A program made the translations under genes and the position numbers. The notes beneath the pieces were generated by a model. The model saw nothing but the letters and a program-made list of their open reading frames with translations, was not told the DNA's origin and did not search any database. Shown here one piece after another: positions 2,523 through 61,429 of a stretch of DNA of 64,000 nucleotides. Numbering within the stretch: position 1 is the stretch's first letter; each line of letters begins with the position of its first letter. Source of the stretch: Apus apus (Eukaryota > Chordata > Aves > Apodiformes > Apodidae); assembly GCF_020740795.1 (NCBI RefSeq), contig NC_067282.1, positions 151,824,858-151,888,857 of the forward strand. Direction: 5' to 3'.

Positions 2523-3070
2523 TTAGTCAAGGCTGGGCTTGACCAGGTACCCATTGAAGGTGATGTACACATCAACATCATCACTGTAAATGGCATTTTC
2601 CCTCTCCCGCTTGTAAAGCCTCACCCAGATCTCATCATTTTCCTGAAGCTCCAGCATGAGGCTCTGGCTCTGCATGATGCTGCGGTCACTGGGTTGGGCA
2701 TATAAGATGACTGCCTCTTCTTCATTGTGCATGATGTGCATGTAGGTCTCCTTGAAGTTCCAGGTATGGACATTGAGGCTGAAATAGTAAAGTCCACCTA
2801 CATAGCAGTAGAATTTACCATTGAACATGTCAAAGTGGCTGTAGAGGTTGACGAAGACGGTGTCAAAGATCAAGACCTGGAAGCCCTCACTGCTGTGTAG
2901 CGCTTTCTTGCGACCAACAGAGAAGGCAGCGTACTGGTGCTTGCAGGGTTCTCCTGCTGTGCCCATCTGTCCTTTACTGCCTTTCTGGCCCTGGGCACCC
3001 CGCTCACCTCGTGGTCCTTCTTTGCCCCATTTCCCCGGCATTCCAGGCTCTCCCCGGTCTCCTTTCTCTC
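2523..3070 (-). CDS. C1QTNF6: C1QTNF6 coding exon 2 (collagen + C1q domain)
   Basis: The acceptor reads CCTGTTATAG followed by GAGAAAGGAGAC. The exon encodes residues 78 (second part) to 259: the 14-triplet collagen stretch, Cys120 and the complete C1q domain, ending KPSLD and TAA at 2525-2523. Confidence 0.95.
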
Positions 3071-4844
3071 CTATAACAGGAAGCAGAGGACACAACTCCT
3101 GTGTGATACCAGAGAGATAAAGCCTAATGAGGAAGCAGAAGATTGCTTAAGGAAGGGACAATGCCAGAAGAAGGAAGGTCCTGAGAGTCATGATATCATT
3201 GTGCTTCATGGGAAAGGAGCTAGCAGAGCTCTGGGTGTGACTGGGGTCTCTTCTCTTATGAACCCTCTCCTCCTCTCTACATTGCTGGAGGCACCAGGAC
3301 CTGTCCCTAGGAGACTTCAACCTAAGAGGGAGGCAAATACCACTGGGGCACTTGACTTCCCTTACCTCCACCACAGCCCCTGCCCTCCTACAAACCTCTC
3401 CTATGACCCAATTCTCCACGTAGTGTGCACACTGTTCTTGCCGTAGGCTGGAGAAGGGGAAGAAGTGCTAATGACTGGATAGGGACAATGAGGTGAGTCA
3501 GAGCAAAAAGATCCAAGCTGGACCTGGCAGAGGGTGCAGTGCAAGTTAGAGGGCTGGTACATTGACATACCAGCATCCTTTGAGCATCTTGTATAATCAA
3601 TACTGGGGTTTGTGCATTGTCTGACACACACTTGGACATGCATCAATACAGACAGCAAGCAGCACTAGAATGTACTTTGTGTATAGAGAGAAGAGATGGG
3701 AGTCAGAGCAGCCTCCAGCACAAGTGACAGCATCCCAAATTTGTGCCTTGCTCTTTTCCTCCTCTCCATCCCCTGCATGGTATTGCAGGTCCCCCTGCAA
3801 CACCCCACTCTAGTCCAGGCCTCTATCTGCCCCAGACACACTTCTGAGCTCTGATGGATTTCAGCTATTTCCAGGCTGGGCAGAGAAAGGGGAGTATCTG
3901 CCCAGCTAGCCGAGAGGAACCACAGAGCAACAACAATCAAGTGGAGCAGGATCCAGCTGGAAACAGGCTTTTGCCCACAGCAAAGGCTAAAAGGGGAGCC
4001 CTGAAGGGAGGAGCTGATCTAAAATAGGGAGCCTTTTCCCATTAGCCAAGCCAGCCACAGCAGGGTGGAACAAGCTGGAGGTCACTGCCAGTTAGCCTGG
4101 AGGTGCTTGCAAATAGCTTCTGACTTCCCTTGACCTCCTCCTGCTCCAAAGTGCATGTAACCCATGGAGCTGGAGAAGGTTTCCCTACAACCTTCCTGGG
4201 GAACAGTGCTTACACTTCAAACCTGCTGATTTTATCACAGAATTTTTCAGCTGTATAAAGACTGCTCCTTCCCTCAGCCACTACAGGACTCTGGAAGTCT
4301 GAGGCAAGGAAGGTGACCTCCTAGCATAGCAAGAAGCTACCACAGCCATTCCTGTGCTAACTGGCAGGAAGAGCTGGTAGCAGGCAGCATCCTAAGACAT
4401 CAAGGTCACCACTTGGATATGCACTGACTTCACTCCCCCTGGGCTAGTCTTGATCACAGCACAAAACATCAAAACCCTGGGCACGGTGTGAGTGGGCACC
4501 TACCCTTCAGGATAGCATAACCAGCATGCCAGAGGCCCAGCTGTCACCTCCACCTCAGTGCCACCAGTACCCGAGCAGGCCTTGGCATCCCAGGGCCAAG
4601 ATGGGCACTTACCCTTCAGTATAGTGATGTTGATATAGGGACGGACCTCCAGCATTGGGTAGGGCAAGCGGTGGTGGCTGGGAGGGAGTGGTGGGACATC
4701 TGTGGAAGAGTCCAGCGGGTCACAACAGCGCTTGCAAGCACCAGGGGCTGGTTCAGTGAGGTTGGGTTCATCAGTGGGTGCCCCAAGCACAACAAGAGGG
4801 AGAAGGAGGAAGACCAGGGGTGGGCACAGGTAAGTTATGCCCAT
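2523..4844 (-). CDS. C1QTNF6: C1QTNF6, complement C1q tumour necrosis factor-related protein 6
   Basis: Secreted collagen/C1q-domain protein (CTRP6). Two coding exons, 4844-4613 and 3070-2523, join in phase 1 (G|GA = Gly78) into 259 codons. In order it has a signal peptide (about 1-21, Leu/Val-rich core), a short variable region with clustered Cys 37, 40 and 41 (CKRCC) that could link subunits, a possible sequon NLT at 28, the conserved stretch [11 protein letters not shown] with a sequon at Asn72, then 14 uninterrupted Gly-X-Y triplets (78-119), Cys120, and a globular C1q domain to the end. Stretches such as [32 protein letters not shown] and RENAIYS match human C1QTNF6 closely, and I recall the same triplet number in human. 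The ATG at 4844 sits six bases inside the exon in a strong context (GTCACCATGG). At least one 5' noncoding exon must lie upstream. The neighbour SSTR3 is on the same strand, as in human. Identity is secure; the transcript ends are not. Confidence 0.95.
3071..4612 (-). other. C1QTNF6 intron between the coding exons
   Basis: A 1.5 kb intron bounded by the donor AAGG|GTAAGT and the acceptor TATAG. I see no repeat, RNA gene or conserved reading frame in it. Confidence 0.8.
4613..4844 (-). CDS. C1QTNF6: C1QTNF6 coding exon 1 (signal peptide to [11 protein letters not shown])
   Basis: The acceptor is at 4855-4851 (TCTTCTCAG), followed by GTCACC and the ATG. The exon encodes residues 1-78 and ends in the donor AAGG|GTAAGT. 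The frame is also open upstream of the acceptor, but that sequence is intronic by the splice signal. Confidence 0.92.
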
Positions 4845-15795: not shown

Positions 15796-17019
15796 TCATA
15801 AATAACTGACATGCAACTTGCTGCTCTTTTCGCATCCCACAGGCTCCTCAGGGAGTGGTTTTTGCTCATTGCTTTCTCCTTCCCCACTGCTTAGAGGGTG
15901 TTGCTGCCTCTCATTACCATTCTGGGTGATCTTGCTGATCTCACCCTCTTCCCCTTCATCATCAGTCTTCTCTGGGGGGCATGCTGGCACCTCCTGGCTC
16001 TGGACTCGGCGGGATGGCCTGAGGATGGCCCTCCGGAAGCCCTGCTTGAAGCGGTAGGAGAGGAAGCCATAGATGATAGGATTGGCACAGCTGTTGGCGT
16101 ATGGCAGCACCACCACGAGGAAGTAGACACCAAAGAGGGATGGCTCCTCTGGCAGTGGGCAGACAACATTGATTATGTTGAGGACGTAGAAGGGGAGCCA
16201 GCAAAGGACAAAGACAGCCACAACAGCCACCACCATACGAGTCACCCTGCGCTCTGAAAGCTTGTGCTTGGAGGACAGAGCCCTCACCCTTCTGCCAGAG
16301 GAACGAACCTTCACAACGATAAGAAGATAGCAGAGACAAATCACTAGCAGTGGCCCAAAGAAGCCCAGGGTGGCAGTGTAGACGATGAAGCCAGCTCTCC
16401 ACACTGAGGCAGGCTCTGGCCACTGAATGTGGCATGTGTTCATCCCTAAGGGGACATCTGAGAAGACCACCACGGGCAGCACTACCACGGAAGAGAGCAC
16501 CCACACAGTTGCACTCACAGCCTTGGCCACCCGTGCTGTCCGCCATTTGGAGGACTTCCCTGGATGGACCACTGCCAGGTAGCGATCAACACTCATCACT
16601 GTCAGGCAGAAGATGCTGGTGAACTGGTTAATGGCATCCACAGCCATCACCAGGCGGCACATGAAAGACCCAAAAGGCCAGTAGGACAGGGCATTTTGTG
16701 CAGCCAGGAATGGCAGGCCCAGCATGAAGAGCTCATCAGCTAGAGCCAAGTTCAAGATGTAGACATTGGTCACCGACTCGCTGACGGAATGTCGCAGGAC
16801 CACGTAAATGACTAGAGAATTCCCAGCCAGCCCCACCACACAGACAATGAGGTAGACCAGGGGGATGAGGACACCGCTGACAACCACGCCAGGGCTGGGG
16901 GTGGTGGAGCTGTTGGGGGTGGTGGAGCTGTTGGGGGTGGTGAAGCCAGCCCAGCTGCTAGAGGCATTCCCCTCCTCCAACACTGCCGGTGTGGGGAGGC
17001 TGAAAGCAGAAGTGTCCAT
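15796..17019 (-). CDS. SSTR3: SSTR3, somatostatin receptor type 3
   Basis: Class A GPCR for somatostatin that couples to Gi/o and inhibits adenylyl cyclase at the plasma membrane and, in mammals, the primary cilium. One coding exon, 407 codons (I recall 418 in human). The N-terminus has sequons at Asn18, 30 and 36. Seven hydrophobic segments follow, from about residue 45 to 320. Seen: Asp95 (2.50), Cys121 and Cys196 for the extracellular disulfide, Asp128 in TM3 (the somatostatin salt-bridge position), DRY at 145-147, CWLPF in TM6 and the somatostatin-receptor signature [12 protein letters not shown] at 307-318. The tail is acidic and ends VSYL, close to the mammalian PDZ-type end ISYL. TM segments match human SSTR3 nearly throughout, so SSTR2 and SSTR5 are unlikely. 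The third loop lacks the mammalian APSCQ motif. The acceptor CTTCCAG at 17080-17074 puts the exon start at 17073, so there is a 5' noncoding exon upstream. Complement strand, neighbours as in human. Confidence 0.97.
16901..16936 (-). repeat. SSTR3: 18-bp exact tandem repeat inside SSTR3 N-terminus
   Basis: Two identical 18-bp copies (GTGGTGGAGCTGTTGGGG on the plus strand) plus a six-base partial third copy. In frame they encode two copies of the hexapeptide NSSTTP, each carrying an N-glycosylation sequon. Confidence 0.9.
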
Positions 17020-17073
17020 AGCAGAGGCAGGGAAGAAGGCAGGGGGAGTGTCCTTGCAGGATCAGTTAGCAAT

Positions 17074-44169: not shown

Positions 44170-44188
44170 ATGGACTTTTGTCCTGCTG
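44170..44188 (+). CDS. CYTH4: CYTH4 coding exon 1
   Basis: 19 coding bases, MDFCPA plus one base of Gly7, then GCTG|GTAAGC. Its similarity to the human start MDLC and the exact frame to exon 2 identify it. Too short to stand alone, so slightly less certain than the others. Confidence 0.85.
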
Positions 44189-47100
44189 GTAAGCCCTGAC
44201 TGTCTTTTGCCTTGTTTTCTGTGAGGGCTGTGCAGTCAGTTTGATGGGGCAGAGCACACCATGAAATTCCACCAGCTAGAGTGGATGCTGCAGCTGGTAG
44301 CTGGAGGAATGAGACGGTGGAAGATCCCTGGTGGTGCAGTTAATTGCTTGTCAGCCTTGAGCACTAGGCGTGCTTTTCTTTTTACTTGCTCTCCTGTAAG
44401 CAAACTCGTGTCACATCAGGAGAAATTTCCCCACTGATTTGAATGGCCTTCGTGCTTGAGAGTGTCTGTTGCTGATGCTCCCGAGATGAGCTAGAAACTA
44501 ACTCAGGGGCATCAAGGGTATATGTGACACTTGGGATGAGCTCCTATAAGCTTTGGCTTCTCCTCATGCAGCTCTAGCATTGCTCACAAGTTTCTCAGTG
44601 GTGTTTCCTTGCAGCCCCCAAGAGCTGGTTTGCCTTTGCAGAGCCTCTCATGCAGTTTGGTGTCCCAGTGCAACATGCTTGCAAGGCTTTTGGTACTGAG
44701 GCCTCTCTTGCTTATGTTTATGTTAAAGGTAAATGACTGTTTTAAGGTTCTAGCAACTCCAAGTGACCTGCAGGTGTGCCTGCCTGGTCCTGAAATAATC
44801 TCAAAAGGCAGATGTGGGTGGGGGAAGATGAGCCACATCTGAGGAACTGAGAGCGAGCTCCGGTTTTATTTCCTGCTTTGGCAGGTGGTGGATAAAGTGG
44901 TTGGGATTCAGCATGGAAAGGCATACTGCCAGGCTGAACATCTGTAGCCTCTGGCTGAGGAAGCTCTGAGCGTGTGCCTGTGCAAAGGCAGCAACAGGGA
45001 GAGCCGAAGGGGAATAGGCTGAACAAGGGCCAGGAAGAAAAGAGATCATCCTGCAATGGCTCTGCTACATCTGACTCCCTCTTCACAAGCTTTTGAGTAT
45101 AGGATATAGAGCACAGAGTGAAGGGAAAAAGCAGTGCCCGCTTTCAAGTTCTGCACTTTTTAGCTCCTAGGTGGGTAGCCAAGGAAAGGACATGCTTAAA
45201 CTGCACACCAGCCTTGCTTGTGGGACCTTTGGGATCTGAGATCCCACCAGCATCTGGCCATGTATGCTGGGGAAGGCAGGTCTTTTCACATCACCCAGCC
45301 CTCACCTCCTGAAAGTAACTGTAAATAAATCTTCTGCAGGAGAAGCTGTGCAGGAGGATGGGGATACTTCATGTTTTGCTACTTATTTTGAAGGGTGAAT
45401 TCTACAGCAACTGAGGATCTCAGAACTGATGGTCTGGCTCAGTCATTTACTCAAGTTATGTGTTACTGAGTTAATGACACCTTTAAAGTTAGACACTTCA
45501 GTAGCACAATGAGATCCTGCTCAGGGACATTGCGGGTTTGCCCAGCTCTGGCTAGAGGCAGACCCCGAAGACAGGCAATGCCTGAAGAGATACGCTGGTT
45601 CTGAAGGATATCTTTGCTCCTTCCCAACCTGTTACTTAACAACTGGGGGGGAAAGTGGGTTTGTGTTATGCTGCTCTACCTTGAGAGGCAAGGCTGCCCC
45701 CAGATACAGGTTTCCAGTGAGCTTTAGAGCCTTGGATGTGTTTCAAGTTTTGCAGCTATGGTGGGATTTTCCTACAGGTCAAAGGTGCACATATACCTTT
45801 TCCTGGAGTTGCTCCTACCTGGAGATACTATGGTCCTGTTAGGTACCTGTCTGCCCCAGCTGCATGCAGCTGAGACCTTTGTGTGTGGGGAGACTGCTGT
45901 CTCTGCAGTGGAAGTCCTCTTCCAGTTTCCCTCGGGACCGTCTAGTGACTATCTGGGTGAGACCACAGAGCCTGCATGCCAAATCCTTGAGCTGGGTGTG
46001 TGGGAAAGCAGGCTTGTACCATGCTATCATGTGCTAGGATGTGTGGGGTGAATGCCATAGGCAAAAGTGGCTGGAAGCTCTCCTAACTGCTGTACGTTGT
46101 CACATGGGATAAGGGGATCAGGACACAACATAAATTCTTCTTCAGACAGAGCTGGAATGCGCAAATGAAACTAGCATGAGGTTCACGTTGAATTTCTTCT
46201 GACACAAACTGGAAGAGAACTGTGGAGTAGCTGCAGGATGGATGCAGGTTGAGCTGGAGGGAACTGAGGAGCTGGAAGGCTTCCTGTTATCTGCCTGGTA
46301 CCAACCTGGTACCTGGCTGGGTAGGCGATGGTCTGTACTGGAGATGACACAGCAGCCATATCAAACAAGAAAAGAAATTTCAGATTATTTTTTTCCACTA
46401 GACTGCCTCACCCAAGTGCCCATTGGGCTGCTCTACTTGTCTGCTGCCATGGGTGGAGGCACTCAAGCCCTTCAGCAGCCACACTCGGAGCCCCACGTTG
46501 CCTTGCAAATGGGCCAGCTGAACCTCTGCTGCTACCCTGTGGGTGGGTAACACGTGGGTGGTCTGTAACAGTGCTACAGTCATTCTTCATCATCTTCCCC
46601 TGTTGTTTCTGTAGTCTGCCCTTCCAGTTCTCCTGGGTAGTCCCTACTTTCCTCTGTGCTCCAGAAGCTACCTTCCTATTCCTATACTTCTGCTTGGGAT
46701 TGAAAGCCCCGGTTGGTACCTGGATGTCTCTGCACAGCCCTTTGCAATGGGAAATGAGGCCAGCAAGCACAGCAGTACTCTTTGCTGGCTACCTGGGTAC
46801 CCAGACTTTAGGGTAACTCCAACTTGTCTCCTGATGGGGAGACTGAGGACATAAGTCACCACAATTGGGACTGAAGTCTGTGTTCTGAGTGACAGCACTA
46901 AAAATACAAGCCTAAGCAATTCCTTAGAAACTCTCGGATCTTTCTGTCTGGGTCTGCTCTGAGTCTGGGGAAGCAAACTCAAGAGCAGGTGCAAGCCCCA
47001 CATTGTGATACTGATGTGCTTTCCTCTCAACATCTGGTCTCTGAAAATAAATTCATGTTCTCTCTGGAGAGGATGCTAACCAGCTTTTTATCTTGTGTCT

Positions 47101-50100
47101 GAACTGGAAGACTTCAGCATTGCTTTGTCTGACAGTGTACACCTGAAATCTGCATGTGTTTTCATGGGGTGTTCTTCATCTGGGTGAAATTTCCCCCTGT
47201 GCAGAGAACCCTGACCAGGGCTATGCTTCATGTGTGTCCTGACCTAGCCCTAGAGGGAAGTGGAACTTGGTGGTACTGAGGACTTTGATGAGGCTGGAGC
47301 CTTTCCTCAGTCCCGAGGTGCAGGGTTAAATTCCCTCTTCCATTTCAAGTGTCTGGAGCAATCCAGGCAGTGCTTCGCTCAGAGTCCCTCTTCTGCTGGC
47401 TCGGCTCATTCTCAGTGTGAAGGATGGAAAGGCAAAGCAGCTTGCTCTCATTATCTCATTGCTCCTTGCTCAGCTGCCTCTGCTGCCTTCTGTGCCTTTC
47501 TCTGGACTGTTCCCCAGACAAATCTGTGTGCACTGACCCCAGCTGCAGACCACAACATGTGCAATAACATTGATGAACGGCCTCAAAACAGCCTTGAGCA
47601 GAGCTTTAGGCCTTCTCATGCAGGCTCTGACCTCAGAATTACTTTCCAAAGCAATCAGGGGTATAAGCTGTTTAGGAAACTTAGGAAACCTTACAAGGTC
47701 CACTCTGCACCTCAATCTACATTGCTCTGAAAGTTTGATCCATTCCTATATTTTTCCTTGCTATTTCACCCTTTCCAGTTTTTCTATCCCTTGCTTCCCT
47801 CCCATTCTCCATGACTTGTATGTTTTTTTCTCCCCTGCCCTCTCCATGCACACAGTCCTTCCCACACTTCTCTCATTCTGACAAACTGGGCAGGTGAAAC
47901 CCTTGGGAGTTGGGGTTTCAGATGTTCAGGAGGACTGAGCTATTTACAGTCTCGGTGGGGGTCTTGTGGGTGAGATGGTGTCTTTTGCAAGCCTCACATC
48001 TCTTTGAGATGCTTTGGGCTGCTTCAGTAGACACAGAACAACTGAAACAAAGCAACCAGTCACACCACAGACTTTGCTGATGGGGTGGGTGAAGAGGAGG
48101 TTCCTCAGGTATGTCCTAGTATGGTGCTTTTGTAGAAAGCAATAAAGGACAAAGGGTCCTAGTGATAATTTGTCAAGGATTCACCTCAGTGATTCTACAA
48201 TTACAAGCTCCTGTAGGGGGTGAGAGAGACAATGCTGGGGACACAGAGAGCCTGGGCTCATCTCCCATGGATGCCAGAACTGCGGGAGACAGAAAATAAG
48301 CTACGAGACACAGGCAGCACTCGCAGGCACAGGGCTGGCATTCAAGTGGCAGTCAGCAACCTAAAAAGCAGCAAAGCCACTGCACAGTGGTTTTTTTGTG
48401 TTTGTTTGGGGTTTTTTTGTTTGTTTCTTTTTGTTAGGCTTTGGGTTTTTTTTTCCTTTTTTTTTTTTCTTACTTGCTTGTTTGTTTGATTGTTTTCCCC
48501 TCACACACAGATTTGGCCATTGCAAGCCGCTGGGTTTTGCAGGTTTTTCTCCCCTCTTAACAGGCTCTAGCAATCAGTCAGCTTCTTTCAGCTCTTCAGG
48601 AGGGCTGATTGCAGAATTGGGAAGGGTCATGGGGGACCTTCCCAACCTTGGCTTCATGCTGGCTCTTTGCCCAGTGCTTTCCTCCTGGAGGCTCAGCAGC
48701 CTCTCCCCAGGGAATACAAAGCTTGAAAACAGCAGAAGGAGTGACAGAGAGAGACTGAAGACTGATAAAAATTATAGGATAGACTTAGCACATGGAAACT
48801 CAACAAGCCTTCAGGCTGGGGGATGGATTAGGATCAGGGAAGGCAGGTCCCTCTGAGCTGTTGCGGCCATGACAGGAAAGAAGCACGTGGGCTCTGGGAT
48901 GACTGCCCTTGCCCCCTTTTCCTTCTGCCTGTTTTGGCTGGTTCCTTCCCCTTTTTTCCCCACTCTTATTTATAGCAGTGGTTTTGCATATGAGATCCAC
49001 ACCAAGATAATTTCCAAGGCAGCTGGTGCCACTTCTCCTTTTTCCAGGAAGACGGGAGGTGTGGGGGATTTTGGCTTATGAAGCAGTGGAGCAGGGCATC
49101 CAGTGATCTGACCTTGGCTTCCTGGGGAAGTTTTGTCTTGCACTGTTTTCTTGCAGCAAGGACCCTGACTGCAAGCTCTTCAGTGACCTCCTGGGAGCTC
49201 CAGTGCTCTCAGCCTTCTGTGAGACTCTGTTTTCAGGTGGGGCTTACCACCTGCTTTGCTTCTCCAGGGTTGCAGCCTCCTCTTTCTCCTTGCTGAGAGG
49301 CTGTGCTTCACCTGAATTATATTTAGCAGCAGTGCTGTCACCTCAGTTTGTCTAGGTCTTTTATGAATCATTTTGTGGCCTCCTTGGCTCTGCTGGTATC
49401 TCTTTGACTTCCTGTACATTGCAAGGAAACCTACTTGTATTTCTGCATTGTCTGTGGTCCACAGAACAACGGCCTCCTACAGATCCTCCCTCTGCAGCAA
49501 GGCTTTTATCTCCCCAGATCCTGCCCTCAAGCTTGAAAAAGCTTGATTCTGTCTCTTAAGCCATTTCTGTCTCTTGCCATGGTGGATCAATCCACAAAGC
49601 CAGTGGCTCCTCAGGGGAGGTTTGGATGTAGATGAAGTATTCAGGTCACAGCTTTCCTGAGATAAAGGGTCTTGTACATAAGGGTGACTGACATAAAAAC
49701 CACGAAAGAGCATTTGGTAAGACCTCTTCACGGTGCTTGCAGTGAGGAAAATCAGCTGAGTAGGTGGGGTAGATTGCAGCAGGGTTCAATCAGAGGCCAC
49801 TAGCACAGTGGCTGGCTGCTAGGAGGGGTATATGGGTCTGTGCTGCCCACTCTGGACTGAGAACCATTTGTAAGGCAAAGCTGAGGTGCAGTGGCTGCAA
49901 CAGCAAAGAACAGGCCAGATTGGATGGGACGTTGAGCAACCTGGTCTAATGGGAGGTGTCTCTGCCCATGCAGGGGGGTTGGAACTAGATGATCTTTAAG
50001 ATCCTTTCCAACCCAAACCATTCTATGGTTCTATAAAGACAGATGCTTGAACACAGAAATCAAAGTTGCTGTGGCATCACCCTAGGAGAGGATAGATGCT

Positions 50101-53100
50101 AACAGGTTGAGGCAGCTTTTCCTGTGATATGTTGATCCCTGTACTATTCTCACAGGCATTTATTTGTTCTTCCAGGGTCAACTGACTTGAGTGAGGCTGA
50201 AGAGGTTGAAATAGAGGCAATCAGGCAGCACAGACAAGAGCTTTTGGAGGACATTAAGGTAAGGACCATCCTGTTCCTGCTGTCTGCCTAGCCTTCTCAA
50301 AACTATCTTCACCAAAAAATGCCTTCACATAACAGTCCAGGCCATGAAGAAGTGTTGCTGCACAAGAGACCTTTGGTCTGGGATGATCCAACTTGAACCC
50401 TGAGCTTCAAGCTGCCCTGGCATATTTGCCACCAGTGTTCATCTGACCTGTGGTATTCTCTGCTGAAGGAGTCTTCAACTGCCATAATAGGATATTTGAG
50501 AAAGGCTGGTCAGCTCATTAGTAGGGATGAGCTGGGATTGCATATTTAGGATCAAAGAAATTAGTATGACTTTACTAAGTCATCTTGGCAGTGATCTGGC
50601 TCAGGATTTATTATTTTAATTACTGATTATCTGCTAATGACATATCAGTCCTAGCTACCTGCTGCATCCCCCTGTGTTATTCAAGGTTTTGTTTGGTTTG
50701 TAGATCTCTAGCAAGTCCTTCATGAAGGATCCTGTCTCTTTAGAGAGGTGTGATGGCAGCACCTTCCACACATCTTTCCATGGTTGAACTGGATTTTCTT
50801 CTTTTCTTTTAGCAGACACAAACATTTCTCCACTGACTCCTAAAATGTCCGAAAGTGACAGATTCAAAATTAGTCAGCAATACCACATCACAGTGGTATC
50901 ACAGTCACAGTTCTGCACGGTGCTGTAGACTTTCAACTCTGCTCTGTCTCCACAACCATGGAATGTGGGCTCCCATTTAAGAGTGAATCTTTGGACTTGC
51001 ACTGATTTTCCCACGACACGAAGATGTCCAGGTGCTCAGGAAATAAGGGCAATATTTCCTTGCATAAAGGATTAAGCCAAACTACCTGTAATTTCTCAGC
51101 TTCCAATATTCATCACCCCTGCTGCAAAATCAGAGTGGTGCCTTGTCTCTTCTTGCAAAACATGCTATGAATGTATGTGCGTGTGGTTTGCTTGTCTGTG
51201 GTTCTTATCACTTCAATTTTCAGAATAGGCAATGGACACTGTAGGAGGCAGGGTACTTGAATAGAAATACTAGATTTGTTGCCCACTATGGGCAGAGAGA
51301 AGCTGCTAGACTACGGACTATACAGACACATACTCTAAATCCCAAAGCCATTAGCCAGTGGAGTATGCATTGTCTGGTGGAGCTGGATGAGTTTAGGTGG
51401 AAAGGTACCTAGAACTAGAGAAATCTTCCCAGGTGAATTTCTTCAGAAAACATATAGCAATACCCTTAAACACAAAGACCTGAGGGGATGTCTGGAGGGG
51501 TAGAAGGAGGAAGGGAAGAGGATGGATTGAGACTTGCCTAAAGGCAGCAAGGAATAAAATAACAAAACTGATAATAATTTTAAATTCAGGAGCTAAGATC
51601 ACAGCATTGTTACATTTTTGCAATACCTGAATCTTAGTAAGGAGCACTCCCAGCTCTGGAGACTGATGAAACACAGCAGAATGAAGGCCAAACCAAAACT
51701 GAAATCCAGAACCTCATTTAAATTATGGGATATTGCATACTGCAACCACATCCTCCCTCCTTGTTGAGTCAGGATTTGTCATAAAACAAATCTTCTTCCC
51801 TGCCTATTCTGGCTTGCATGAGGAAGAATTTCGGTGGTTCCTGGAAGACAGCTGTGATGCACTCTGGCTCTGAGGGGGACCATAACCACAGGATGGAAGC
51901 AAGGAGATACAGACGTTCATAACCTTGGTAACACAGAATATCTAGCCAAGGTGGCCACAGTCTGTCACAGGCCTACAGGAAACTGAATTCTACAATTCAG
52001 TTGAAAAAAAAGGCAGTAATTATTTGTCTTTTATTCCTCCTCTCTTCTTTCTTCTAACAGGTATCTGCTCACTGTTATTGAACAATAGGTGCTTTGAAAA
52101 CGCTGTATTTCACAATGTGGCCACTTCAGGTTCATACTGACCTCCCAGTTACTGGTTCCACTTCCCCTTTCCTGGATGTGTAGAAGGTCTTATGCAAAGT
52201 AAAAGCTAGAAGGAAATGGGCACAATGGAAGATGTCTCACATGTGACATTGTTTGAGGAACTGAAATCAATGCTGGAGTGAGTTCTCTGACTCTCCACAC
52301 TGGCTAGGGTTCATTTAACAAACCTGATTAACAACAGACATGAGAACATCCTTCTGCCTCTGTTTCCCATTATTTTCAGCTTAAATCCAGCAGTCAGCCC
52401 AGAGCAGTGCTCATTTCATAAACATCCTTGGCTGGTCATGATATCTGACTTGTCCTTTTCCTTTAATTGAGGAAAGAAGTAAGACATGCTCTGTATTTGT
52501 CCACTGTTTTTCCTTTCATCACCTTCATCTTCCAGATATTTCTTTTGCAGAAGCTGAAGGAAGAGATTGCTGAAGTGTTTGCAGAAATTGAGTGTTTCCA
52601 AAATGCAGAGGAGAGGCCAAAGGCAGACAATAATCCTGGGGAGCAAATCAGGCAAGTGGGAAACAATGGGTATTCCTTTGTTTAGAAAGTCTCTCTGCTG
52701 GTGTTGAGAAAACAAAAATACCAATAGGATCTGGATCACAACAAGGACGGGGAAATGAGACCAGGAATGCCCTTCTCTCCTCTGATATTCTTTTTATTCC
52801 TGGATAGTCAGATACCTGTCCTTGAGATTTCTGAGGTACCTTGTGAGTGAACTGAAACATGGCCCTTTCTTCTAAGTCTGCCTTTCCTTCTTCTTTGTGT
52901 TTACAGCAAACTGTCAGAGAGGGATAAATTTCTGTCCCTGGGCCGGAAGAAATTCAATATGGATCCTGAAAAGGTAGGATTTGCTCATTTCACCAATAAC
53001 GGTAAAACTGGGAATAAGAGCTTCTGTTGGCTAACTTGTCCAGTTGCAGCTACCCATGCCAAAGGAACTAGGGCATGGGACTGTGGGACTGGTTTCCTAC

Positions 53101-56100
53101 CTCACAAAGGCTCCAGTTAGTACAAACTTCCTTCCTGTCCCTGAATAAGGTCTCCTGATATGCTCAGCTGTGTTGCCTCTTCCCACCATGATCCTATAGG
53201 CCATCCCACGGGATGCAGCCCAAAACTAAGAGAAATAAAGACAGGATGGTTTAACTGTCAATAGGTCAAGAGAGCCTAATCTCCTTCAGCCCAGCTCTTC
53301 TTGTTTGTGGGAGGCTAAGAACTGCCCATAGTGGAGGAGGTTGAATTAAGAAGATGAGCTGTTTGAGAGAGTGCCAGGTTTCTTGGCTCATTTATAATGA
53401 AGGAGGACCAGCTGCCTCTGTAATTTTGGAAGTAGTTTTGGTAGTACTGTTTGGACTGTGGAGTGAATCCAGGTTTTTTACTTTCTGGGACCCTGATCAG
53501 TGGGGTTCAGACTTCAGCCCTCTGCAGAAAGCTCTAAAATTGTCATGAATAAGTAGAGAAGATGTGAGAAAGACAATTTCCTCTTCTTTCCTCCTCACTG
53601 GTGCACCTTTTTTTTTGAGCTCTGTAAGGAAGACCACAAGCTGTGACTGAACAATTGCTCATCACCAGCTAACAACCCCAGCCAGCATCTTGGGAGGCTG
53701 CTGGTCTGAGTGACAGCTTTTCATGCTTCCTCCTCTGCCCTGCTGAGACCCTCAAGACAGTATCTTTTCCCCAGTGTCTGCACCACAGCTGGAGTGCTTT
53801 CCAGTCCCCTAGACATCCCTCCACCCATGGGAGCTGTCTCAGAGCAGTGATATCAGTACTTACAGCCTGTGTGAGAGCAGGTTTCATTTTGCCTTTCCAC
53901 TGACCTTGGTTTGAGGCCCTAGAGGCATCTCTCTATGGCACTGTGCCATGCTGTGCAGAAACACCTGAGCTCGTTCTGACCCAAACCAGTTTAGCTTTGT
54001 TGGTTCAATGCTGATCAGCCTGATCAAAACGCTGTTCTGTGTGCCTGTATTTTTACTTTAGAAAAAGCATATGAGGATCTCTCTTTATTGCTCCCCTTTT
54101 GCTACGTGCCACAGGCTGAGAGGTGCTGCAATCCAAGGAACTTTCTTTGCCCCTCCTTGCTAAGGTGACGCTTCATCCATGCAATGCCCTACCTTAGAGT
54201 TCCTATCTCCAAGATCTCAGGGCAAGTTCCTGAGGCTAAAGGAGGTAAGCGTCAGCAATCCAGCTGAACAAAATCTTCCGGGAGAAACATTTTCTTCTGG
54301 AAAATGGAGCCCTATCGTCACTGCAAGGCTTTTCAAGATTAAATTGAATTTACCAAAATTCTGTCTGGGGAAAAAGAAGGAAAATAATGTGGAAAAACCT
54401 CACAAATATTTCAATTTCTTCTTTCGAAACTCCTTTTTCTTTGGGGCATTTTAGAAATACTTTCTTATATATTACAAGGCAAAGTGAATTGATTCTGTTG
54501 AAATAGAACATTTTGATGGATCTAAAACAATTTTCATTCCTTTATTGTATTTTGTGAGGGGAATAGCAATGTGGTCTGGAGAATTGCAGTGGGTTTTGGA
54601 TATTGCTAAGAACCTGAACAAAATCTCAACTTTCTGTGACTTTGAAAATAATGAAATTCCCTCTAAAATAGTATTTACTCTTTGCACAGCCCAACTCAGA
54701 CCCTCTATCTTTCATTAAAAAAAAAACCAACATACTCCATCCTTGCTGACTGATGGGGCTGGAGCTTAAAAGACTGCCCACTTTTCTGTTCTGTGGCATA
54801 GAAGAAAATAATTTTGCGTTGTCTCAAGCCTGTATTTTTGTCTGAATGCATTTTTTAATTGTGTAATTTTTTTTAAACAAACATTTTTTCTTTAAGTTAA
54901 TTTGGAAAAAAAAAAAAAAAAAAGACATTCAGGAATAGAACACTGACATATTTTCACTGAAAATATTAAAATGAACAAACTACTTTTACTTTGCCCTAAA
55001 TCTACTGAGCTTTTGGACTTTTAGCCTTCATTTCCCTTTTTCTGTTTGCTTGAGTCTCCATCCCAGCAAAACATTTATCCAAATCTAGGGATGAAATGGA
55101 AGTGGGACTGACCCAGCATGGTGGATGAAGAGGGATGGAATAAGGGTGGCTGTGGTCTCCCAAGAAGAGACTGCAGAGTAACAAAGGAGGCAACATCATC
55201 AAAGCCAAAGAAGGCTGAGATCGAGTTGTTGGGGTCCTGCTTTCTCATCAGCCCACAGAGCTGTCTGACTTCACTAGCTTGCTTCTCTTTCCCTAGGGGA
55301 TACAGTACCTGACTGAGCACAAGGTATTGTCCTCAGACCTGCAGGATATCGCCAAATTTCTCCACAAGGGTGAAGGCCTGAACAAGACAGCCATTGGGGA
55401 TTACCTGGGTGGGAGGTGAGCAACCCAGCCAGGATGAGGAGGCCCTTTGGAGGCCCTGTCCTGCCTAGCCCCTTTCAACTACCATTTTAGATGACCCCTG
55501 GCACACTTCAGTCAGGTGCTGGGGTTGAATGTGCCTCAAACTGCAGTGGGCTGGGTGGGCAGTACACCCCAGGGTGTGGGCTTTGGAGTGCGGCTAAGGC
55601 TGGCTGTATGGGCTACCCATCCTTCTGCCTGCAATGGGGTCAGTCTTCCCAGAAAAGTGCATGCATCTTGGCTTTTTGTTGGTCAGAGGGGAAGTGGGGG
55701 GTGGGATGGAGCCAGGTGCATGTTATCACAACAAGGGGCATCCAGACGGAGTAGGGTCAAAACTCTCTTCTGACCTTTTCCCTGTATCCTCTCCAGGGAC
55801 CCCACAAACATTCAGATCCTCCAAGCCTTTGTGGCATGTCACCAGTTTGCCAACCTCAACCTGGTGCAGGCACTGAGGTGAGTGAGCACGCCGGATGCAG
55901 GGGATGGAGCAGGAGCCTGCTCAGCCACCGGGTCTTACCACCCAGGAAGGTTGTGAAGCCCTACTGGGTTGGAACAGGGATTTCCAAGGCCCTGCTGTGT
56001 GTGTTGGCTCTCAGACATGCTCTGTAAGGTGTTAATGCCTTTTTCTGAGGGAACTCTTTCATGGCCCCTTGGCTGGCCTGGCTATATGCAGAGAAGGTGG

Positions 56101-59100
56101 GGAAAGCAAGGTGGATCATCATGGCTTCAGTGCCTGGGGGAATGGGGCAGGTTATTTTTTGCACCAGGAAACAGGCCTGTCCACAGTGCCTATTATGTCA
56201 GTGACAAAGTGACTGTCTCATGTCATCCTGTTTTCTGATGGGCCAGCCTCCTGGTGGGACTCTCTCTTGAGGTCCCTGCTGCCTTGCAGGGCACTCATTA
56301 AGGAACAGGAGGCATGATTTCCAGGATGCTTAGTCCTGCTGCCTCTTTTTAGTTTGCTTGAGGCTGATGAGCCCAGGCAATTTATAGAGGAGGAGACCTC
56401 CTGCTTCATACACTCTCTTGTCTTCCCAGTGTGGTGGGATTACTTATTTTATTTTAATGGTGTCCCAGGGGTTGAGGGAAAGGATAAAAGGCCCTTGCAC
56501 ATAATCTGACTAACCCTCTGGCATGCTGCTCCTGATAGACAGTTCCTGTGGAGTTTCCGGCTGCCTGGGGAAGCGCAGAAGATTGACCGGATGATGGAGG
56601 CCTTTGCCAACTGGTACTGCAAGTGTAACCCGGGAGTATTCCAGTCCACAGGTAGTTATGGGGAAAAGAAGGCCTATAAAGCTGAGCTCCACTGTTTGCT
56701 AGAGAGGGGAGCCTTCCTTTTCCATTCACAAAGCGCAGAGGGCATCACTTGGAACCCTGGACATTTCCTCTTAAGCTGAAGGAGGCAGCCCGGTTCCTGT
56801 GAAGCTTTTCAATAGGCTGAGGGTCTTCAGTCCTCCTTTTGCTACTGTGCTCCAGTCCATCCCCACAGGCAATAGACTGGAGAAGTCCTCCCAGACCCTC
56901 ATCGCAGCAAGGAGAGCACTGACAGACATGGGTCTGTAGAAACTTTGCTGCTGGCAGAGTCATTATCAGACCAAATCTATCTGACTTGCCCCATTACCCT
57001 GAGGGGATGGAATCACCTCCATCATAGGAAATCAACTCTGTCTCTCTTAACAGAGGGGACATCTTCCTTTTCCTCCTACAGCTGAGAGCATGATGCTGTT
57101 CTCCAGTGACTGGACACAAAGCCACCTGTTAGGGTGTGGATTGATCTGCCCTCTAAGACAAGTGCCACCCATCCTATTTTGTTTTCTCATTGCCAGATAC
57201 CTGTTATATACTCTCCTTCTCTATCATCATGCTTAACACCAGCCTGCACAACCCCAATGTGAAAGACAAACCCGCCTTTGAAAGGTTTGTAGCCATCAAC
57301 AGAGGCATTGACAATGGAGGAGACCTGCCAGAAGAGCTCTTAAAGGTAAGAAGACCTCCTGTTTTCTCATCAGTCCCTCTTTTCTTTTGGCTTGGGGTCC
57401 ACTGAGAAGCAAAGGTGCACAGGCCTGCTGACCTTCTACCATATAAGGGGATGGGCTGTGTGAGGAAAAAGGGCAGTTTGTACAAAAGCAAAGCTGGAAA
57501 GTGTGGAAAACGCTTTGGAGAGGGGCTGTGTTGGTGAGGACATGGAGCAAGAGAGATGGGGTGGGAGACATTCAGGGAACAGCACTATTATTTTTAAGAA
57601 AGTTTGTGTTTCTAGTGTGTCCTTGTGGAAAGAGGAACAGATACACTTGCTGTGTGAGAGAGGAAGACACAAGCTTTGTGTGTCCGTGTGTCACGTAGAT
57701 ATGAGGCTGTGTGAATGGAGCACCCACCTCTGTGGGAGGCAGCTGGGCATTTGACTCTTTTGGCCAGCTTTGAAAGTCCCAGCCCCTAAGGGGACTGTCT
57801 GTTTCTTGTGTGTCTGTGTGTGTGAGAGGCAATCTACAGTGGCCCACATTATTAATCCCTTTCCCTCATTTGTACCTAAATGTCTCAGCTGATTCTAGTG
57901 TTCACATCAGTCAGGACACCAATGCCTGACCTCTCTTGCACTAGGATATATCTTTGAGTGAGTAGAACCAACAAGTCCCAGGTGGGTGTCAGGATCTCTT
58001 CCAGAATCTCTTCCAACATCTGTAAAGCTCTCAGCAGGCCCGTGATGTCTCTGATGCCAGAGGATGAAGATGCAGAGGGAGAGAGAGAGACAAGGGATGC
58101 ACCTATTAATAAACCTGAAGCTACCATTTTCCCAAGGGCTCAGTAGGCAAGGAACCTCTGCCCTGTGAGACAAGATAGATAGGGACATCCTGCCTACATG
58201 TGTCTAGCTTCACCCAACCAGCCTGGGGAGAATAACTTGTGTCTTATATCAAAGAGGCTTCTTACATCCCACACTTGAGTTTTTTGAGCAGCATCCCCTC
58301 AGGGGAAAGGCTTTAGATTTTTCTCCAGAATGTTGTTTCTTCCAGGCAATTTGAGGGAATCTACAGGAGCCTGTACTCTCAGTTTTTCTCTGGGATTTGT
58401 GTAATAAATGATGGCAAATCCAATGTTGTGAGCAACATTTCAGTACCCCTTGAAAGCTGGTAACCTGCCTCCCTGTTGCTCTGCTATTACAAATGTCACA
58501 GTGTCCCTCTCAGTGGAAATGCCTTGGTTCTATGAAATATGCCTCCTGGTGGTCATGCAGATGTGTGTATTGGTCTCTACATGCAAGATCCTAGCAGAGC
58601 ATTTGACACTACCAACCCAGGACCTAAATGAGGCTGCAGTCTCTGCTGTGTTGTCCCCAGCACTGTCTCAGTGCTACCCACGGCAGAACTTGTGGAACAT
58701 GCTGGGGTCAGTCATTGCAGCCTCTTTTGATATGGGTACTCACTTTTGTGTCTGTGGCTTTCCAAAAGGGGTCTCTTTTTTTGACACAGGAAGCAGAAAC
58801 GAGCTGGTGATTCCCCTTGAGATCCTGCAAGGTGTAGACTGAGGCCTATTGTACCCCAGTGCTCACCCCTCACCATCCACCCCCTTGCCCCTGTGGAAAC
58901 AGAGTGATGAACCAGATAGACCCAGGAGGGTTGTGTACAAACTTTTGTCAGAAATCTTTCTCTCTTTTTCCCCTCACCAATGCCCTGGGGCAGAATCTGT
59001 TTGAAAGCATCAAGAACGAGCCATTCTCCATACCTGAGGACGATGGGAATGACCTCACACATACTTTCTTCAACCCTAACCGTGAGGGCTGGCTCCTGAA

Positions 59101-61429
59101 ACTAGGTAAGGGGGAGGATGCCCCTCAAACCTCTGAATTCCCTGCCTGCCACCACAGATCTCCCCCAGGAACCCACCAGCATCTCCACCCTCCTTCACTC
59201 CGGTCTGCTGTGGTGGGGAGAGGCTGACACCTGCTGTTGAAACCAGCAGCCTACCCTCTCCTCCCAGTCTCCTGCAGACTCTAGCTGCTCAAAAAGGGAT
59301 TTAGACAGATATCCCTCACCCCCTCGCCTCCCCATTTCCATCAGAGTAAAACTGGCTCCCTGTGTGTGCCTGTCCACAATCCAGCATCACCAACAGTGAG
59401 CACCAGGGTTGGTTGCCTCCTTAGGGCTGATCTACAGGGAGAGCCGGGAGGGTGTGCCTGTGTGCGCATGGCTGGAGCTTGGGAGAGCAGGGGTAGGGAC
59501 ACAGGAAGGACAGCAAAATAGGTGACTAATGGCTCTTGGACCTTGCTGCCTTTAGGAGGACGTGTGAAAACCTGGAAACGCCGTTGGTTCATTCTGACCG
59601 ATAACTGCCTGTACTACTTTGAATACACCACGGTAAAGGCTTAAGTCCTGGTTGGGAAACTGTGTCCTGGGGGGTTATGAGCCTCTGAGGGGCCAGGGAA
59701 GAGCAGAGGGTAGGGGGCAACTCCTCCAACCCTATGCTCTCAGACCAAACTCAGACCTCCTTTGTCTCCTGTGATGTTTCCTCACCTCTGGTGTTGAGGA
59801 GGAGGGAGACTGGACACTGCAGCTCTTGCTGGGGTCTCCTCTTAACAGAGCTTCCCATTGTGAAAATGGAGACGGACTCCCCAGGCATACGCTGCCCTTG
59901 TCACCTTCACAAAGACACACGTATGGGAAAACAGAGAGGCTGTAAATAGTAGCATAGATAATGGGGAGCATGCTGAGAGTTAATTCATGTTCCTTTGCCT
60001 TCAGGACAAAGAACCTCTGGGCATTATCCCCCTGGAGAACCTGTCAGTCCGGAAGGTGGATGATCCCAAAAAGCCCGTAAGTCTCCTTTGCTTGGTACTC
60101 TGCCAACACAGGCTCTCAGGCTGTAAGAGGGAAGAGGGGGTTGACACACTCTATTCTTACTATGCCTCTCAGAGGGAAGGTGCCATTCCACACTGCTTTG
60201 TCACCCCTTCCAAACATGACAGTATTTAAAAGTTATTATATTTTACCAGGGAAGATCTGGTGTGAACAGAGATGTATTGTTTGGCTGGGTGCATCATATG
60301 TGTTTGTGTGTGTCTGTGTATCTGTGTCTGTGTAGGGGGGTGCATCAGAGATGAGTGCACACAGCTGACTCCCCACACATTTTGCACCAAGGGATGTGGG
60401 TTCAATTTCTCTTCCCAGGACTCTCCATGATGAGGTACAGCATGTGTAGACCAGATAGTGTTACGGTGTTAGGAAACTTGCTCAGGAAGTGGCACTCCTT
60501 TCCTGTGCATCTCCTATGGATAATCACTTTTTGATGTGGCATTACCTTGGGAGAACTGCCTTCTGTCTGTGTGGTGGCAGGCAGAGGGGAGGATGTTCAG
60601 GAGTGGAGCAGAATGACAGATCCCATAAGGTGTTTTTTGGTAACTGTTGATGCTCCATCTCTCCATAATACATGTTAAGTGTCTAGCCCTTCACCCCACA
60701 GAGAGGGCCTGGAGATGTGACTCATAGCACAATTCTTGGCTCTGTTGCATTTCAGAGACAGAATGCTCTCCTCCCCTTTGGAACCTCTCTGAGCCTGTCA
60801 CCCATGGTTGAAGGCAGCACTGTTTCATTGGTCCACCCTGTCCTCCCCTAATGCTTCATTTTACTCCCTTTCTAACAGAACTGCTTTGAGCTCTTCAATC
60901 CCAACTGCAGAGGGCAAAAGATCAAAGCCTGCAAAACAGATGGGGATGGGAAGGTGGTTGAAGGCAAGCATCAGTCCTACAAGATCTCAGCAGCCACACC
61001 AGCAGAACGTGATGAGTGGATTGAGGCAATACGGTGAGGAGAGCAGAACTGGAGGCCTGAGCTTGCCTTTGCTCAGCCCCAGGGACAAATGGTCATGCAG
61101 TTGATTTGGCTACCAGAGCTCTAAAAAGAGGGTGGAAAGAAGTGTTTGCAGTCTAAAAACTGCAGCACCTCTTGACTTCAGAGTGTTTCAAGGTCCCTTC
61201 TGGAGAATCTCTAGTGACAGCTAAATTCTGTGGGTCTGCAGATCTCCAGTCCTACATTTTGGTGAAGGGTCTCTCTGTGCAAGTTCAGTTAGGTTGCCTC
61301 TGATGTTCTCCAGCATTAAATATCTTACCTTTACTCTCATTTCTTCTTATTTCCAGGACTAGCATCACACAGGATCCTTTCTATGATCTGGTCTCTGCCC
61401 GTAAGAAAAAGATTGCCAGCAAAAACTGA
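44170..61429 (+). CDS. CYTH4: CYTH4, cytohesin-4 (ARF guanine nucleotide exchange factor)
   Basis: Cytohesin that loads GTP on ARF proteins at PIP3-containing membranes; leukocyte-enriched in mammals. Thirteen coding exons give an open frame of 406 codons, or 394 (the length I recall for human) if exon 3 ends 36 bases earlier. Order: MDFCPAG, an N-terminal coiled coil (about 12-60) with [20 protein letters not shown], the Sec7 domain (about 66-253) with [26 protein letters not shown] and the catalytic glutamate in [14 protein letters not shown] (Glu168), a linker [18 protein letters not shown], a PH domain (about 271-388) with the diglycine phosphoinositide loop [14 protein letters not shown], and the basic tail [20 protein letters not shown] and [14 protein letters not shown] fit cytohesin-4 better than 1-3. 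ATG has A at -3 and G at +4. All donors are GT except exon 3. Identity is certain; the exon 3 end is open. Confidence 0.96.
48388..48499 (+). repeat. T/G-rich low-complexity tract
   Basis: T runs broken by single or triple G, with GTTTG units, similar in composition to the tract at 5943-6125. Confidence 0.85.
49921..50034 (+). mobile_element. CR1 LINE 3' fragment in CYTH4 intron 1
   Basis: GAGCAACCTGGTCTAATGGG, then GGTTGGAACTAGATGATC and CAACCCAAACCATTCTATGG, ending TTCTAT. A 5'-truncated tail of about 114 bp in the CYTH4 sense, 140 bases before exon 2. Confidence 0.93.
50176..50258 (+). CDS. CYTH4: CYTH4 coding exon 2
   Basis: Acceptor TTCTTCCAG, donor AAG|GTAAGG. Residues 7 (part) to 34, ending [11 protein letters not shown] in the coiled coil. 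The 34 residues of exons 1-2 equal the human count I recall. Confidence 0.95.
52551..52651 (+). CDS. CYTH4: CYTH4 coding exon 3, ending at a GC donor
   Basis: Acceptor TTCTTTTGCAG. Residues 35-68 (part) of the coiled coil and linker. The end chosen is ATCAG|GCAAGT, a GC donor otherwise matching the consensus, which keeps phase 2 into exon 4. The junction expected from related cytohesins is at 52615 (GAGAG|GCCAAA), also GC but in poor context. A GT at 52670-52671 (AATGG|GTATTC) is in phase but weak, and the GT at 52656 gives the wrong phase. Confidence 0.7.
52907..52973 (+). CDS. CYTH4: CYTH4 coding exon 4
   Basis: Acceptor TTTACAG, donor AAAAG|GTAGGA. Reads in phase 2 as (S)[18 protein letters not shown] then DPEK; the other two frames have an early stop or lose GRKKFNMDP. 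Confidence 0.95.
52974..55296 (+). other. CYTH4 intron 4
   Basis: A 2.3 kb AT-richer intron with an 18-base A run at 54906-54923. No repeat family recognised. Confidence 0.8.
54906..54923. repeat. Poly(A) run
   Basis: Eighteen consecutive A without a recognisable retroposon in front. Confidence 0.85.
55297..55415 (+). CDS. CYTH4: CYTH4 coding exon 5
   Basis: Acceptor TTCCCTAG, donor GGGAG|GTGAGC. Residues 91-130 (part), Sec7 helices with [19 protein letters not shown]. The last Gly replaces Glu of human YLGERDP. Confidence 0.96.
55797..55877 (+). CDS. CYTH4: CYTH4 coding exon 6
   Basis: Acceptor CTCTCCAG, donor CTGAG|GTGAGT. Residues 130-157 (parts), [10 protein letters not shown]. Confidence 0.96.
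56539..56651 (+). CDS. CYTH4: CYTH4 coding exon 7 (catalytic glutamate)
   Basis: Acceptor CCTGATAG, donor CACAG|GTAGTT. Residues 157-195 (parts) with [20 protein letters not shown], holding the Sec7 glutamic finger. Confidence 0.96.
57197..57345 (+). CDS. CYTH4: CYTH4 coding exon 8
   Basis: Acceptor CATTGCCAG, donor AAAG|GTAAGA. Residues 195-244, [20 protein letters not shown] to [10 protein letters not shown], the ARF-binding part of Sec7. Confidence 0.96.
57346..58993 (+). other. CYTH4 intron 8
   Basis: A 1.6 kb intron without recognisable repeats or conserved frames. Confidence 0.8.
58994..59105 (+). CDS. CYTH4: CYTH4 coding exon 9
   Basis: Acceptor CTGGGGCAG, donor ACTAG|GTAAGG. Residues 245-282 (part), Sec7-PH linker [15 protein letters not shown] and the first PH strand REGWLLKL. 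Confidence 0.96.
59556..59632 (+). CDS. CYTH4: CYTH4 coding exon 10 (PH domain, diglycine form)
   Basis: Acceptor CCTTTAG, donor CACG|GTAAAG. Residues 282-307, [20 protein letters not shown] then YFEYTT. The split Gly plus the first full codon give two glycines. An overlapping TAGGAG pair could remove one. Confidence 0.95.
60005..60076 (+). CDS. CYTH4: CYTH4 coding exon 11
   Basis: Acceptor GCCTTCAG, donor AGCCC|GTAAGT. Residues 308-331, [20 protein letters not shown] then PKKP. Confidence 0.96.
60879..61033 (+). CDS. CYTH4: CYTH4 coding exon 12
   Basis: Acceptor TTTCTAACAG, donor ATACG|GTGAGG. Residues 332-383 (part), PH strands with [18 protein letters not shown] and the start of the C-terminal helix. 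Confidence 0.96.
61357..61429 (+). CDS. CYTH4: CYTH4 coding exon 13
   Basis: Acceptor TATTTCCAG. Residues 383 (part) to 406, end of the PH helix and the polybasic tail [10 protein letters not shown], then TGA at 61427-61429. Confidence 0.96.

Follow-up and report, generated by a model that had tools for sequence, protein, structure and literature searches.

A predicted GC splice donor 36 bases downstream of a lost ancestral donor would lengthen exon 3 of CYTH4 in Apus apus

About 0.8% of the splice junctions in human protein-coding genes are GC-AG introns, and the genes that carry them are described in the same source as more prone to alternative splicing (PMC7242645). In such introns the remaining donor signal lies nearer to the consensus than usual (PMC2490688). 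The CYTH4 intron discussed below resembles the U2-type GC-AG introns described in PMC7242645, PMC7072748 and PMC2490688 in its C at +2, its near-perfect flanks and its AG end, and differs from them in that its donor lies 36 bases downstream of the ancestral exon boundary and is a predicted one. A second parallel is the camel whey acidic protein gene (PMC6350295), in which a cryptic site within an intron likewise adds 12 nt (4 residues) in frame to an exon in a species-specific way; this gene also has a GC-AG intron, there a separate feature. In the camel it is the acceptor side of exon 3 that is extended, in the upstream direction, with sequencing or measurement of the cDNA and the protein, whereas the CYTH4 extension is predicted from genomic DNA. 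The CYTH4 event was undescribed in the titles or abstract openings among the matches listed in our literature search, and it is likely to be a new instance of GC-AG introns and shifted exon ends of the kinds already described.

The window, by which we mean the whole 64,000-nucleotide stretch of Apus apus DNA that was analysed, holds the following gene model; positions are those of the window.

44170..61429, + strand: coding part of CYTH4, ATG through stop in 13 exons, with the joined frame open
44170-44188 and 50176-50258, + strand: coding exons 1 and 2
from 52551, + strand: exon 3, its end under study, its start preceded by a polypyrimidine tract and AG
52907-52973, + strand: exon 4, where the Sec7 region begins; acceptor place and phase match both paralogues
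55297-55415, 55797-55877 and 56539-56651, + strand: exons 5 to 7
57197-57345, 58994-59105 and 59556-59632, + strand: exons 8 to 10
60005-60076, 60879-61033 and 61357-61429 (stop included), + strand: exons 11 to 13

In this 13-exon model all 12 acceptors are AG, and GT is present at each of the 11 donors other than that of exon 3. The gene has the coiled coil, Sec7 and PH domains of a cytohesin together with the exon structure of the family, and the 406-residue version of its protein matched solved cytohesin-3 (6u3e) over residues 9-405 (E = 2.1e-190). Within the Sec7 region (window 55297-55415) the protein has GDYLGGRD against GDYLGERD in solved cytohesin-3, with Gly instead of Glu among residues that are conserved. 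Orthology to CYTH4, as against the other cytohesins, is tentative and was judged from genomic context: two further cytohesin loci lie elsewhere in the genome, and this one has a GPCR gene and a C1q gene as neighbours, which fits the human gene order around CYTH4. The GPCR neighbour (window 15799-17058, - strand) is one uninterrupted frame of 420 residues whose rhodopsin-type domain is recognised by Pfam 7tm_1 (E = 1.3e-69), presumably SSTR3 by synteny; the other (window 2526-3146, - strand) carries a C1q domain (E = 1.4e-36) and a collagen stretch (E = 6.2e-9), and is presumably C1QTNF6, again by synteny. The Pfam scan for neighbouring genes covered 9 of the 92 open reading frames in the window. 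What we take to be the end of a CR1-like repeat lies near 49980-50035.

The CYTH4 protein was also searched against the same genome (a 1.10-Gb assembly in 110 contigs, the first of which, of 206 Mb, contains the window), which gave two more loci that have cytohesin-like exons, one on contig C15 and one on C18; weaker matches were set aside by their low identity as other Sec7 or PH proteins. We read the C15 locus as a probable CYTH3 because its exon-4 peptide occurs in solved cytohesin-3. The C18 locus is read as a probable CYTH1, its identity to the peptides of three human cytohesin-1 exons being 93-100%. In both of these genes exon 3 is 65 nt long and agrees with CYTH4 in its start, its phase, that ancestral length and the position of the exon 4 acceptor. 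Unlike CYTH4, both have kept a strong GT donor at the end of exon 3, with an in-frame stop directly after it. The further paralogue exon ends that could be projected from CYTH4 fall at GT donors in 19 of 19 cases. The donors of exons 7 and 9 in the CYTH3-like gene, GTTGGT and GTTAGT, carry T at +3, a position occupied by A or G in the majority of the 32 donors collected from the three genes.

Because two paralogues have GT at the homologous base, the ancestral boundary of CYTH4 exon 3 lies at 52615 (in the motifs below, a slash marks the cut). Here the CYTH3-like gene reads GAAAG/gtaagt and the CYTH1-like gene GAGAG/gtgagt, while CYTH4 reads GAGAG/GCCAAA, just as the earlier note had it: GAGAG ends at 52615 and no GT follows. 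The features around this boundary are as follows.

52551..52615, + strand: the 65 nt of exon 3 that are ancestral, encoding the end of the coiled coil; length, start and phase equal those of exon 3 in both paralogues
52616..52621, + strand: position of the lost ancestral donor, now GCCAAA (paralogues gtaagt and gtgagt; flank score -1.8)
52616..52651, + strand: predicted extension of exon 3, 36 nt or 12 residues, open and in phase
52649..52657, + strand: predicted GC donor CAG/GCAAGT (flanks 8.3 bits, share 98.5%, U1 energy -6.9)
52652..52906, + strand: predicted GC-AG intron 3, 255 nt, with GC at 52652-52653 and AG at 52905-52906
52667..52675, + strand: rival in-phase GT donor TGG/GTATTC, cut after 52669 (flank score -6.2, U1 energy -5.4)

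That CYTH4 has lost its normal exon 3 donor, as had been proposed, is well supported by these comparisons: both paralogues have GT exactly there, and cytohesin-3 shows a gap of 12 residues opposite the extension. The loss involved more than one base change, since four of the six bases of the old hexamer depart from GTRAGT.

Joining exon 3 to the acceptor at 52907 from 52615, 52651 or 52669 gives 394, 406 or 412 residues, respectively, each open to the stop codon, while skipping exon 3 or retaining intron 3 leads to a stop. The value of 394 residues for the ancestral joining agrees with the earlier note, which gives the same length, and the same spacing from CF to GRKK, for human CYTH4; the comparisons made here rest on the paralogues in this genome and on solved cytohesin-3. 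The note was also right about the GT at 52656: in the joined frame a cut after 52655 meets a stop in exon 4. An open frame past 52615 is in itself no evidence for an extended exon, because 45% of starts remain open for 22 codons.

Six in-phase GT or GC positions occur between the start of exon 3 and the first in-frame stop (52683). They were scored with a donor matrix based on 32 GT donors from CYTH4 and its two paralogues, a set that comes from one gene family, leaves out the CYTH3-like exon 2 donor and the exon 1 donors of the paralogues, and was combined with human dinucleotide frequencies (98.6% GT-AG and 0.8% GC-AG of protein-coding splice junctions, as given in PMC7242645). The strongest candidate, CAGGCAAGT at 52649-52657, has flanks of 8.3 bits, more than 31 of the 32 real GT donors, the single higher one reaching 8.4. 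None of the remaining five candidates exceeds -0.7 by the same matrix, in which the lowest of the 32 real donors has 0.4. Weighted support among the six is accordingly concentrated at 52651 (98.5%), with 0.55% for 52669 and 0.09% for 52615. Predicted U1 duplex energies give the same order less decisively (-6.9 at 52651, -5.4 at 52669 and -3.1 at 52615); the 11 other CYTH4 donors range from -5.2 to -10.3, and nine of them are stronger than the 52651 site. With GC at its start, AG at its end and flanks near (A/C)AG/GCAAGT, the predicted intron 3 has the features of the U2-type GC-AG class.

We therefore consider it very probable, from the sequence comparisons and donor scores, that exon 3 of CYTH4 is joined to the exon 4 acceptor mainly through a U2-type GC donor after 52651, which would give a protein of 406 residues with 12 extra. 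The earlier claim of a near-perfect GC donor in phase 36 bases downstream is borne out, and its use, which the note inferred, is strongly predicted by both the matrix and the U1 energies. The suggestion that such a donor might be alternatively spliced found no positive support, as the other five candidates lie below all 32 real donors, even if U1 energy taken alone would still admit 52669; its basis is the general tendency, cited above, of genes with GC-AG introns.

It is the placement of the GC motif, not its count, that is unusual. The window shows no enrichment of MAGGCAAGT (2 matches against 2.87 expected, with at least 2 in 79 of 100 shuffles). On both strands, 44 of 127,400 starts are followed, within 22 codons and ahead of any stop, by an in-phase GC site with the U1 energy of the predicted donor; 22 of these come from the CYTH4 site itself and 22 from the sole other copy of the motif, so that the background is about 22 in 127,400. 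GT sites of the same strength under the same conditions follow 4,358 of the 127,400 starts (3.4%). A coarser grid that includes the tested site gives 6 of 18,200 starts for GC and 621 of 18,200 for GT. A 14-nt inverted repeat (79%) pairs 52593-52606 in exon 3 with 52652-52665 at the GC donor. RNA structure as a means of hiding a donor was considered and rejected: the segment 52580-52680 folds no better than shuffled sequences (z = 0.20; 110 of 200 as good).

How the present arrangement arose is a separate matter. Decay of the ancestral donor followed by recruitment of a cryptic one is a possible history among several, alongside earlier alternative use of the downstream site. We give a lesser but appreciable weight to the view that the 406-residue form is correct and was reached by another route, either insertion of 36 nt before the old donor or a GT to GC change at 52652 in an exon that was already long; by either route the donor would never have been abandoned for a cryptic one. 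This view overlaps with our account of the present state, and its weight is not to be added to those of the other readings. The four departures from GTRAGT at the old site go beyond a single decay step and speak for it, and changes of GT to GC in place are common, with 298 against 40 in the reverse direction in primates and rodents (PMC2490688). Against it, the extension shows no sign of having come from a tandem duplication, with local similarity no better than in shuffled sequences (996 of 2000 were equally good), and a 601-base segment around it matched the genome once, at its own position, in a search that skips very common words; these two tests leave room for a unique or old insertion. 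A degenerate pattern for exon 3 had no exact match in genome_contigs or viral_contigs, which says little, since only prokaryotic or viral sequences make up these two sets. Phage records searched for distant DNA similarity likewise had no match, and phmmer with the 33-residue exon-3 peptide alone returned nothing useful.

The other readings concern the present splice site and fare worse. The GT after 52669 is in phase, its product of 412 residues (18 extra) is open to the stop, and it has the canonical dinucleotide where the preferred site has GC; its U1 energy of -5.4 also resembles those of two real CYTH4 donors (-5.5 and -5.2). Its flank score of -6.2 nevertheless lies under that of the lowest real donor, and with its share of 0.55% we regard it as improbable as the main or a frequent donor. 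It is more improbable still that the old boundary at 52615 continues in use as a GC donor, AG/GCCAAA, yielding the ancestral 394 residues: the site is in the ancestral place, starts with GC and would give a gap-free length against the aligned region of cytohesin-3, but its U1 energy (-3.1), flank score (-1.8) and share (0.09%) are all low, and GC donors are said to require better rather than worse flanks (PMC2490688). It is likewise very unlikely that the missing donor reflects a mistake in sequencing or assembly, or an uncommon allele of the sequenced animal, even though a single assembly stands behind the sequence, as no single-base error would turn GTRAGT into a hexamer differing at four of six bases, and the rest of CYTH4 is open with GT at all 11 of its other donors.

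Returning to the predicted GC donor after 52651, we propose that U1 would recognise CAG/GCAAGT despite the one mismatch at +2, because the near-perfect flanks would make up for the C; this step we regard as strongly indicated. Removal of the 255-nt GC-AG intron would then place 12 additional residues between the coiled coil and Sec7, and use of the donor would probably be constitutive. In the alignment of the 406-residue model with cytohesin-3 (6u3e), a 12-residue gap coincides with the extension, in the coiled-coil–Sec7 linker, where the earlier note had placed it.

In Grp1 the linker between the coiled coil (18-53) and the core (63-399) was modelled as flexible (PMC6948192), and the predicted insertion is for that reason probably tolerated. 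The extra residues may do no more than make a flexible linker longer, and any effect on dimer geometry or on autoinhibition by the coiled coil would be mild at most. For cytohesin-2, PMC3841123 reports that the coiled coil lowers membrane association and binds regions further towards the C terminus; by analogy, and speculatively, a longer CYTH4 linker could weaken such a contact or leave it alone. A bolder version, which we think doubtful, is that a bird lineage fixed a longer Pro/Gly/Asn-rich CYTH4 hinge by way of a GC donor that is obligatory and lacks a good alternative, loosening the membrane restraint by the coiled coil and tuning Arf activation in the cells that express the gene.

The shift is an ordinary kind of change of gene structure. 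If confirmed, it would give a small and clean example, in a conserved signalling gene, of an exon boundary that moved into an intron where a GC donor is used. It would also be a caution for automatic annotation, in which missed GC donors may make an exon seem short or broken. Finally, if confirmed, it would offer a natural test of what length of linker between the coiled coil and Sec7 is tolerated in cytohesins.
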